Positions 7,790 through 22,599 of a DNA stretch of 61,103 nt are shown here, in pieces (the stretch's first letter is position 1; the number at the start of each line of letters is the position of its first letter). Below the pieces are notes generated by a model. It saw only the letters and a program-made list of their open reading frames with translations, was not told the DNA's origin and made no database searches. The position numbers and the translations under genes were made by a program. The stretch spans positions 1 to 61,103 of the forward strand of contig SCEJ01000016.1 of the NCBI GenBank assembly GCA_004102785.1, read 5' to 3'. This DNA is from Muribaculaceae bacterium Isolate-013 (NCI). GTDB lineage: Bacteria > Bacteroidota > Bacteroidia > Bacteroidales > Muribaculaceae.

Positions 7790-7799
7790 AGGTGAGAGG

Positions 7800-7827
7800 T
7801 TAGGGGTTAGGGGTTAGAGGTTAGGGG
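7800..7827 (+). repeat. Four TTAGGGG units (7-bp tandem repeat)
   Basis: Units at 7800, 7807, 7814 (TTAGAGG variant) and 7821. The G-rich plus strand resembles ciliate-type telomere repeats and has four G-runs with quadruplex potential. It lies in the leader of the minus-strand TPR gene, so the transcript would carry the C-rich complement. Confidence 0.8.
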
Positions 7828-7831
7828 CCTT

Positions 7832-7876
7832 AAGGACTTTAAGGACTTTAAGGACTTTAAGGACTTTAAGGACTTT
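7832..7876 (+). repeat. Five AAGGACTTT units (9-bp tandem repeat)
   Basis: Five perfect head-to-tail copies of AAGGACTTT, followed by AAGG and TCCTT, between ansA and the TPR gene. The 9-bp period matches the arrays at 12322-12456, 17265-17393 and 59607-59642. The unit is nearly self-complementary, so hairpins are possible. Confidence 0.85.
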
Positions 7877-7898
7877 AAGGTCCTTGAAGGGCAGGAGG

Positions 7899-11170: not shown

Positions 11171-12316
11171 ATGGAAAAAATCAAGCTGTTTTTCTCGGCC
11201 GGAGAGGCCTCTGGCGACCTCCACGCCGGGGCGCTGATGGCCGCGCTTGTGCGTGAAAGCGCCTCACGTGGCGCCGCTGTGGAGTTCACATACCTCGGGG
11301 GCGACGAAATGGAGCGAGCCGCAGGCTGCCCGCCGGTGGTGCATTACCGCGAGATGGCCTTCATGGGATTCGCCGACGTGCTGCGCAATCTCGGCAAAGT
11401 GCGCCGCAACCTCGGCGCGGCAATCCGGGCCATGGAGCGCACGCGCCCCGACGCCGTGGTGCTCGTTGACTACCCCAGCTTCAACCTCCGCCTGGCCCGC
11501 CACGCCTTCAGCATGGGCATCCCCGTGTATTATTTCATCGCGCCGAAAGTGTGGGCCTGGAAAAAATGGCGTGTGCGGCAGTTGCGCCGCTACTGCCGCA
11601 AAGTGCTTTCGATACTCCCGTTCGAGACCGACTTCTTCCGCAACCACGGCGTAGAGGTGGAATATGTTGGCAACCCCTCGGTGGCGGAGGTCGACGAACG
11701 TCTGCGCCACACCCCCGAACGGAGCGGGCTGTGCCTCCGCGCCGGCCTGGCGGCCGACACCCCCTATCTGCTCCTTGCCCCCGGCTCGCGCCGCAGCGAG
11801 ATAGCAAAGAATCTCCCCGTGATGCTCGCGGCGGCCGCCGGCGCGCCGCAGTATCCGGTCATAATCGCGGCGGCTCCCGGCATAGAGCCGGAATATTACC
11901 GCGCATTCACGCAGGCGCCGATGCTCGCCGGCGAGACTTTCGCCCTGATGGCGCGTGCCGAGGCGGCGCTTGTGACCTCGGGCACGGCCACACTCGAATG
12001 CGCCCTCTGCGGCACACCGCAGGTGGTATGCTACCGCGGAGGGGGCTCGCGCCTGGTCTACAACATCATGAAACGGATTCTGACCATCCCCTACGTATCC
12101 CTCCCAAACCTCATAGTCTCAGAGGAGATAGTGCCGGAGATGCTCATGCACCTCTGCACCCCCGATGCCGTGCGCCGGCGCCTGCTCGACATACTCCCCG
12201 GCGCTCCCGGACGCGACGCCCAGCTACGCGGCTACGCCGACCTGCGCCGGCGCCTCACCGGCTCCGACGCCCCCGCCCGCGCCGCCCGCGCCATCATCGA
12301 CGGCCTACCGGAGTAG
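11171..12316 (+). CDS. lpxB: Lipid-A-disaccharide synthase
   Basis: GT19 glycosyltransferase of the inner-membrane face. It joins UDP-2,3-diacylglucosamine and lipid X to form the lipid A disaccharide. The 381 residues match the family length. Signatures are FFSAGEASGDLHAGALM at the N-terminus, VLVDYPSFNLRLAR, YFIAPKVWAWKKWRVRQL, LLLAPGSRRSEIAKNLP and LVTSGTATLECAL. The conserved first motif begins at residue 7, so no later start is possible, although the promoter leaves no room for a leader. The gene ends at a face-to-face 9-bp repeat array shared with convergent xseB. Confidence 0.96.
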   Translation: MEKIKLFFSAGEASGDLHAGALMAALVRESASRGAAVEFTYLGGDEMERAAGCPPVVHYREMAFMGFADVLRNLGKVRRNLGAAIRAMERTRPDAVVLVDYPSFNLRLARHAFSMGIPVYYFIAPKVWAWKKWRVRQLRRYCRKVLSILPFETDFFRNHGVEVEYVGNPSVAEVDERLRHTPERSGLCLRAGLAADTPYLLLAPGSRRSEIAKNLPVMLAAAAGAPQYPVIIAAAPGIEPEYYRAFTQAPMLAGETFALMARAEAALVTSGTATLECALCGTPQVVCYRGGGSRLVYNIMKRILTIPYVSLPNLIVSEEIVPEMLMHLCTPDAVRRRLLDILPGAPGRDAQLRGYADLRRRLTGSDAPARAARAIIDGLPE

Positions 12317-12321
12317 GAGCG

Positions 12322-12456
12322 GTGAGACTTGTGGGACCAGTAGGACCAGTAGGACTTGTGGGAGAGCCATGATTGCCGGGATTATCCCCGGATGGCTCCT
12401 ACAAGTCCTACTGGTCCTACAAGTCCTACCGGTCCCACAGCTCCTGCAAGCCCTAC
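12322..12456. repeat. Face-to-face 9-bp repeat arrays between lpxB and xseB
   Basis: Left array 12322-12366: five 9-bp units such as GTAGGACCA, GTAGGACTT and GTGGGACCA. Right array 12394-12456: seven units of the exact complementary type, such as TGGTCCTAC and AAGTCCTAC. The arms can pair into a long hairpin around a 27-nt centre. The right array runs into the xseB stop codon (12453-12455). Probably a bidirectional transcript end; the 9-bp unit recurs at three other sites in the window. Confidence 0.85.
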
Positions 12457-12656
12457 TCCTGCATTCCGGCAAGGATTGTGCGGAGCTCCTCGTCGGTGGC
12501 GGTGAGTCGGGCGCGGCATTCGGCGATAAGTTCCGTGGCGCGGCGCGTAAGTGTGGCCAGGCGGTCGATGTCGCACTGGTCGCCCTGCATGGTGCGCAGA
12601 ATCTGCTCCAGCTCGGCCACGGCCTCGTTATAGCTCATTTCCTTTATCTCTTTCAT
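12453..12656 (-). CDS. xseB: Exodeoxyribonuclease VII small subunit
   Basis: A 67-residue helical protein that associates in several copies with XseA to form exonuclease VII, which degrades single-stranded DNA. The family pattern is YNEAVAELEQILRTMQ followed by DIDRLATLTRRATELIAECR. It lies 57 nt downstream of xseA in the DUF3256-xseA-xseB run. Its last codons are part of the right 9-bp array, so the repeat may have shaped the C-terminus (ILAGMQE). Confidence 0.93.
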   Translation of the reverse strand: MKEIKEMSYNEAVAELEQILRTMQGDQCDIDRLATLTRRATELIAECRARLTATDEELRTILAGMQE

Positions 12657-17264: not shown

Positions 17265-17393
17265 GCGGGACAAGTAGGACCGGTGGGACTTGTGGGACTT
17301 GTAGGACTTGTGGGAGCCTCTTTGATAACTTACGCCCAAAGTCCCACCCCTCCTACTCGTCCCACCAGTCCTACTCGTCCCGCCGGCCGCTCC
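17265..17393. repeat. Face-to-face 9-bp repeat arrays after the PepSY-like gene
   Basis: Left array 17265-17318: six units including GTGGGACTT (twice), GTAGGACTT and GTAGGACCG. Right array 17340-17393: six roughly complementary units such as AGTCCTACT and CGTCCCACC. The arms pair imperfectly across a 21-nt centre. The palindromic terminator at 17394 follows directly. Same unit family as 12322-12456. Confidence 0.85.
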
Positions 17394-17434
17394 AAAAGTA
17401 AGCCCCGGCGCATGATGCGCCGGGGCTTACTTTT
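17394..17434. terminator. Perfect palindromic bidirectional terminator
   Basis: AAAAGTAAGCCCCGGCGCAT pairs with the mirrored arm up to 17434 (19-bp stem), with A-tract and T-tract at the ends so that it works on both strands. It lies between the convergent PepSY-like gene and the 936-residue secreted protein gene. Confidence 0.92.
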
Positions 17435-17454
17435 GGGGCGGGATAACCAGGTGA

Positions 17455-22514: not shown

Positions 22515-22599
22515 GCAGTAGGGACGCTCCGTGGAGCGTCCGCACAAAATATTTAAAATCAGCCGTTTACACGGACACTCCACGGAGCATCCCTACGGC
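22515..22599 (+). repeat. Dispersed palindromic repeat, second full copy
   Basis: The left arm 22515-22543 (GCAGTAGGGACGCTCCGTGG then AGCGTCCGC) is the near-perfect reverse complement of the right arm 22571-22599, around an AT-rich core. It is homologous to 652-738 and the half copy at 174-204. It sits between two signal-transduction units. Confidence 0.8.

Follow-up and report, generated by a model that had tools for sequence, protein, structure and literature searches.

Between the convergent genes lpxB (11171-12316, plus strand; lipid-A-disaccharide synthase, Pfam LpxB, E 5.5e-74) and xseB (12453-12656, minus strand; exonuclease VII small subunit, Pfam Exonuc_VII_S, E 5.4e-12) lies a 144-bp stretch (12313-12456) that consists mostly of a 9-bp unit, GTRGGACNN, arranged in two tandem arrays facing each other. 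The G-arm (12313-12364, plus strand) holds six units in phase, the outermost of them degenerate; this unit, GTAGGAGCG, contains the lpxB stop (12314-12316), and the innermost one reads GTGGGAG. It is followed by 31 inter-arm bases (12365-12395, no strand assigned), which include CCGGATGG, and by the C-arm (12396-12456), whose seven in-phase units are read on the minus strand; five of these are strict (to 12438) and the two outer ones degenerate. The outermost C-arm unit contains the xseB stop (12453-12455), and both flanking stops, each a TAG, are inside the array. The first-pass annotation had described face-to-face 9-bp arrays at this place, five units on the left against seven on the right; the arrays are present and slightly longer than described, the seven right-hand units stand and do run into the xseB stop, and the five left-hand units become six, counting the degenerate one. 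It had also called the right-hand units exact reverse complements of the left-hand ones, which they are not: the GTRGGAC core matches, but NN and R often differ, and facing NN agree in only 2/5 positions.

The best ungapped inverted repeat across the element has 42 of 50 nt complementary (84%) with 31 nt between the arms, where a stem of about 45 bp around 27 nt had been proposed; the hairpin itself is upheld, with a predicted RNA minimum free energy (MFE) of -106 and -108 kcal/mol on the two strands (z -11.8 and -10.3) and none of 200 shuffles per strand folding as well. An ordinary terminator was rightly doubted from the start, as no run of five T occurs within 40 nt past the array on either strand, and so was a CRISPR, the units standing head to tail without unique spacers. 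A scan with Rfam at gathering scores of the window (the whole stretch of 61,103 nt that was analysed) returned only three tRNAs.

The element is not alone in the window. When up to 2 mismatches are allowed, a two-unit pattern matches 20 times against 1.1 expected, a number reached by 0/100 shuffles, and a second copy is formed by a G-arm of six units (17265-17316, plus strand) and a C-arm of five (17341-17383, minus strand). Adjoining it is a hairpin of 26/27 pairs with a 1-nt loop and an A-rich/T-rich outer stem (17387-17441, no strand assigned), which looks like a terminator by eye; it is missed by our strict terminator scan, which thus undercounts. Other short repeats occur as well. The window carries a single-arm nonamer array at 7829-7882 (5.7 perfect copies of TTTAAGGAC), preceded by a heptamer-like GGTTAGG array at 7790-7827, and units of the TTTAAGGAC type are also found in genomes G137 (L104, at 17924 and 18526) and G587 (L208). 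CTCTAAC heptamer arrays of 8 and 10.3 copies occur elsewhere in the same genome (L120, 7114-7169; L122, 3019-3091). A separate REP-like family of GTAGGGACGCTCC... inverted pairs is present in the window (22518-22596) and in two further regions (L113, 1422-1502; L114, 12045-12163), even though a search of the genome turned up no Y1 transposase.

In the 3.3-Mb assembly to which the window belongs, a draft of 385 contigs, a three-unit pattern allowing up to 3 mismatches matches 151 times and the reversed control pattern not once. Among the matches listed, supplemented by a second search, at least 18 places carry the GTRGGAC unit, any made up of poorer matches alone possibly being absent from this number; two are in the window, and the other sixteen are spread over 15 fetched regions. 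Both arms are built of this unit in 16 of the 18 listed, and in all 16 of these the arms converge (two-sided p 3e-5), in a listing that covered both strands and made no selection for order; opposed halves, first seen at a single locus, are thus the rule across the genome. The remaining two are a single arm of three units (L044) and a hybrid (L042, 2974-3079), in which a left arm of GTTTAAGGA units faces a right arm of GTCCYAC units; the two unit types share the GGA/TCC spacing but fold weakly (predicted MFE -27). In one region (L033, 3028-3898), a gene of 183 aa lies between two copies whose centres are almost identical. The gene has a weak match, under the Pfam cut-off, to 23S rRNA-intervening-sequence proteins; the pair and the gene stand behind a gyrB/parE gene.

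The units follow a simple grammar. Both arms, when read in the G sense, fill NN from nearly the same few dinucleotides (TT, CA, CG, TG, GA), and position 3 is A in 97 and G in 101 of 199 units. The innermost unit is set apart by its position 7, which is G in 25/32 arms (GGAG in 24) against 12/167 of the other units; each full copy is two short arrays converging on a centre that is usually capped GGAG...CTCC. The centre can itself be shared: CCGGATGG or its complement is found in 5/16 inter-arm stretches, namely those of the lpxB-xseB copy, both L033 copies, L039 and L043, against a background of 26 occurrences per 458,603 bp of the own-genome sample. The two L033 copies, about 700 bp apart, were counted as one event, and the Poisson figure for the motif assumes about 400 bp of inter-arm sequence, which is our estimate. 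Because this centre recurs in several copies, at least some of them probably descend from one element that included it.

Copies stand directly behind stop codons, in gaps where two genes converge or, in co-directional pairs, after the first gene. Counting the hybrid with the 16 two-armed places, 15 of the 17 listed lie within 30 bp of a stop, whereas uniform placement in the same gaps gives a mean of 8.4 and reached 15 in 0/20,000 draws; the preference for gene ends that had been suspected is thereby supported. Six of the 17 neighbourhoods are convergent, ten co-directional and one divergent (L040), and each of the ten co-directional copies lies closer to the stop of the upstream gene than to the start of the following one (p 0.001). 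The enrichment in convergent gaps that had likewise been expected is there, though modest, at 6/17 against 21 of the 173 neighbouring gene pairs separated by 60 bp or more (one-sided p 0.019), but convergence of the genes is not required. The comparison draws on the window and 20 stretches from array-bearing contigs, away from the arrays (458,603 bp in all), in which adjacent pairs are co-directional in 258 cases, convergent in 29 and divergent in 30, or 123, 21 and 29 when the gap is at least 60 bp; genes were called by a simple codon-usage script rather than a standard gene finder, and for the right-hand neighbour at L032 this call differs from the longest-ORF reading. TAG stops, as at lpxB and xseB, terminate 8 of the 22 array-side genes against 28/326 in the sample (p 0.0007).

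Among 20 neighbour proteins scanned with Pfam are LpxB, XseB, an LpxA-like acyltransferase, GyrB/ParE, MetK and MlaD, and further an ammonium transporter, UvrA, MiaA and FtsZ, gene names finer than the Pfam family being our reading. One protein has no Pfam match, and none of the 20 is a transposase. On the sense strand of the gene, the predicted MFE ranges from -55 to -109 kcal/mol at 21/22 gene ends, the exception being the hybrid (-27).

Outside its own genome, the GTRGGAC unit is near control level in this phylum. Within the draw from the family, 0/9 other members of the genus contain the three-unit pattern when 1 mismatch at most is allowed; any match at all occurs in 5/149 genomes, the own one included, and a control match in 3/149. 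In the draw from the phylum, 8/395 genomes match, again counting the own one, and 8 give a control match; the other 7 matching genomes are all of genus g94. As far as the nine sister species searched can tell, the family thus appears to be confined to its own species within the genus. The orthologous site gives no second view of the locus, since in 12 other genus loci reached via lpxB (two fragments of a 13th genome, L059-L060, not included) no xseB or xseA was found within the fetched stretch of about 1.5 kb behind lpxB.

Arrays of the same design but of other units do occur in the genus. An unselected 400-kb sample of G137 contains two face-to-face 9-bp arrays with a TCGGARTTN-like unit, and GGA repeated five times every 9 bp is found in 7/14 genus genomes, chiefly the own (65 matches), G124 (54), G097 (33) and G137 (17), against 1 to 8 matches of the reversed control in 6/14. 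G124 has GTCGGACNN and TTGGGANNN-like units and G097 TGGGARTTW-like ones, so that each genome has mostly its own; GTCGGACNN is nevertheless common to G003, G031, G124, G135 and others from several genera, and some units are therefore not strictly bound to a species. In three regions of G124 (L165, L168, L169), GTCGGACNN arrays have near-symmetric outer ends, for example GCTCCGTC...GACGGAGC, which suggests defined element boundaries. Across the family, six GGA units match 400 times in 47/198 genomes and the reversed control 140 times in 32/198. This control is not independent, as units containing AGG (TAGGA, AAGGA) repeat AGG every 9 bp too, and GGA-N6 also catches apparent Gly-rich coding repeats (for example in G023 and G028, judged without translation), so that 47/198 is not a clean count of intergenic arrays.

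The placement of this wider class was followed in 32 regions from six genus relatives (L190 left out) and 20 from 14 other genomes of the family. Eleven of its 54 arrays are in predicted genes; 9/54 are two-armed, of which 8 converge and 1, in G097 (L189), has the opposite order. Outside predicted genes, 7/43 lie within 30 bp of a stop, and between co-directional genes 16/22 are nearer the stop. Given these weaker counts, the strict rules hold for the GTRGGAC family of the own genome, and amount to no more than a tendency in the wider class. Single-arm arrays in the relatives show no consistent strand by eye.

An exact convergent pattern of two plus two GTRGGAC units finds 27 stretches in the GTDB-220 collection, with titles including Hydrogenedentota, Planctomycetota, Acidobacteria, Verrucomicrobia and a Bacteroides sp., and 1 stretch in viral contigs. 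Ten of the 11 of these genomes that were searched contain the three-unit pattern, with 126 matches and 0 control matches in an Acidobacteria MAG and 19 against 8 in one Hydrogenedentota MAG; the search used the GTRGGAC unit only, in what are mostly metagenome assemblies, and its counts do not measure an excess over other units. In a Hydrogenedentota MAG (L062, L065, L066, L073, L084, L085), array and flanks resemble a longer repeated element, flanks and centre being common to several contigs by eye.

These observations are probably best accounted for, at moderate confidence, by a dispersed non-coding hairpin repeat that has settled at the 3' ends of genes and forms a structure at the end of their mRNAs. 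Copying and recombination within the genome would have spread the copies and kept them homogeneous. Upon transcription of the upstream gene, the element would fold into a very stable RNA hairpin, which would end or protect the mRNA 3' end, stopping 3' exonucleases after Rho-type or read-through transcription. Counted against this account are arms that do not mirror each other (discussed below), the hybrid L042, the divergent L040, the single arm of L044, the hairpin at 17387-17441 beside an array, and the looser placement of the wider GGA class in relatives.

The element may, on the other hand, be only tolerated rather than useful, and plain tolerance is the main rival to an effect on the mRNA 3' end. 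As neutral or selfish repeat DNA without a host function, which is a tenable but clearly lesser possibility, arrays would grow by slippage and template switching and be spread by ectopic recombination, and their removal from promoters, 5' regions and genes would leave the sites behind stops. The comparison of facing arms speaks for this. Selection for pairing, or recent copying from arm to arm, predicts that facing NN match; they do so at 22/68 positions, a fraction of 0.32 where arms taken from different loci give 0.28 (permutation p 0.19), and R agrees at 34/68. Behind co-directional genes, facing R positions read on the sense strand form 22 Watson-Crick pairs, 10 G-U and 15 A-C, and G-U not being above A-C, there is no sign of selection for RNA pairing. 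Facing arms are thus unmirrored at their variable positions and precise pairing is not visibly selected; the core still pairs, so that a strong hairpin forms, and it is the pairing itself that is not visibly refined. That the unit differs between most array-bearing members of the genus also fits this reading, and the degenerate outer units, like the units that supply flanking stops such as those of lpxB and xseB, resemble growth into gene ends. Plain slippage, however, would not lead one to expect 16/16 convergence and the inner GGAG cap, and the confinement of 15/17 copies to within 30 bp of a stop is tighter than avoidance of promoters alone requires.

Alternatively, each GGA nonamer could be a binding site of a protein that recognises DNA or RNA and whose specificity drifts from one species to the next. 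A conserved core of 7 bases with a variable spacer NN, the use of one unit alphabet in both arms, and the persistence of GGA every 9 bp in some relatives while the other bases change would all agree with such sites. We consider them unlikely, as a period of 9 bp is out of helical phase with B-DNA, many genomes also give matches to the reversed GGA control, and no candidate protein came to light, without a systematic search for one.

A transcription terminator, in which the array hairpin releases RNA polymerase whether or not a T-run follows at some distance, would be in keeping with the gene-end position and with the strong hairpin predicted on both strands. T-runs of five to nine T are found 9-30 nt past the array at L035, L036, L037, L039 and L042, so that a run of at least 5 T within 40 nt occurs at 5/22 gene ends, all of them among the 10 co-directional places, compared with 13 of 173 ends without an array, for which the 40 nt lying 20-60 nt past the stop were scanned; these runs could represent a T-tract at a distance or a downstream feature unrelated to the array. 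Other terminator-like sites are fewer at array gene ends in the stricter scan, at 2/22 against 40/170, which is not significant (p 0.17). Against termination, a T-run starting within 14 nt of the array is seen at only 1/22 ends (L035), none is found within 40 nt at the 12 ends of the 6 convergent places, that of lpxB and xseB included, and the second copy is adjoined by the terminator-like hairpin at 17387-17441. An intrinsic terminator in the strict form is rejected on these grounds, and termination as the general role seems improbable, while a looser role of this kind may exist behind co-directional genes.

A quadruplex element after the manner of the Xanthomonas heptamers is very improbable: the strand is G-rich and about half of the units have GGG, but position 3 is A in 97/199 units and the motif G3(N1-7)x4 occurs in just 3/34 strands of 17 copies. 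The C-rich arm, which offers YC every 9 nt, could conceivably bind Rho.

REP elements in general prefer gene ends. Those of the GTAG and CGTC superfamilies and their BIMEs are dispersed, extragenic and arranged in inverted pairs (PMC3733652), all of which is true here, and GTAG occurs in about half of the units. The RAYT-associated GTAG type is nevertheless rejected, since the unit here is a tandem 9-bp non-palindrome (with GTAG in 97/199 units) rather than a palindrome of 20-40 bp. The Y1 transposase (PF01797) has 0 matches in the own draft genome of 385 contigs, in a search that finds it in 5/14 genomes, and a RAYT of its own is rejected as the mover.

BrickBuilt of Porphyromonas gingivalis is a minisatellite MITE with a 23-nt unit and with leader and tail subunits, present in 19 copies in one genome at 49-591 nt from genes and endowed with promoter activity (PMC4596501). 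It shares with the present family a species-limited tandem repeat within a dispersed intergenic element and inverted ends, and differs in its 23-nt unit, leader and tail, distance from genes and promoter activity, being of another design.

The closest described system found is that of the GGGAATC heptamers of Xanthomonas, and it is to these, as well as to REP elements, that the family would be likened in its behaviour. The heptamers are short, G-rich units in tandem, in which some bases vary around a conserved core; two sites close together converge in 70 instances in Xcc and in 75 in Xac. They are mostly intergenic, with divergent gaps under-represented, and the ORF upstream, at a mean distance of 28 nt, is almost always closer than the following one, at 160 nt; long repeats are not at the same genes in two species, quadruplexes form in vitro, 186 and 183 sites exist per genome, and related repeats occur in Nostoc (PMC4692102). 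The family described here shares the close convergent arrays (16/16) and the position nearer the upstream stop (10/10 co-directional places); it differs in unit and period (GTRGGACNN and 9, against GGGANTN and 7), in phylum, in the number of places (at least 18) and in the scarcity of the quadruplex motif. A search of the literature that covered few subscription journals found no report of a nonamer version of such repeats.

It is tempting to see in the GTRGGAC family one member of a general class of 9-bp GGA arrays (GGA-N6, sometimes with a converging TCC) that runs through the family and recurs in other phyla, with the period, the GGA, the convergence and the position behind stops held constant and the remaining bases exchanged from species to species. 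We regard this as doubtful, its probability being lowered because the reversed control scores too; if true, it would point to a factor that builds or reads the arrays and coevolves with their unit.

For the narrower family, the pattern known from Xanthomonas, of convergent G-rich tandem repeats behind stops, acquires a counterpart of another period, phylum and sequence and with little quadruplex potential, which separates the traits that the two share, convergence and position behind stops, from the possibly incidental G-quadruplex. Since units differ between species of one genus, these arrays make it possible to test by what route such repeats originate, spread and become homogenised, and the GTRGGAC family whether the mRNA 3' ends of ftsZ, gyrB/parE, metK and other core genes are set by them.
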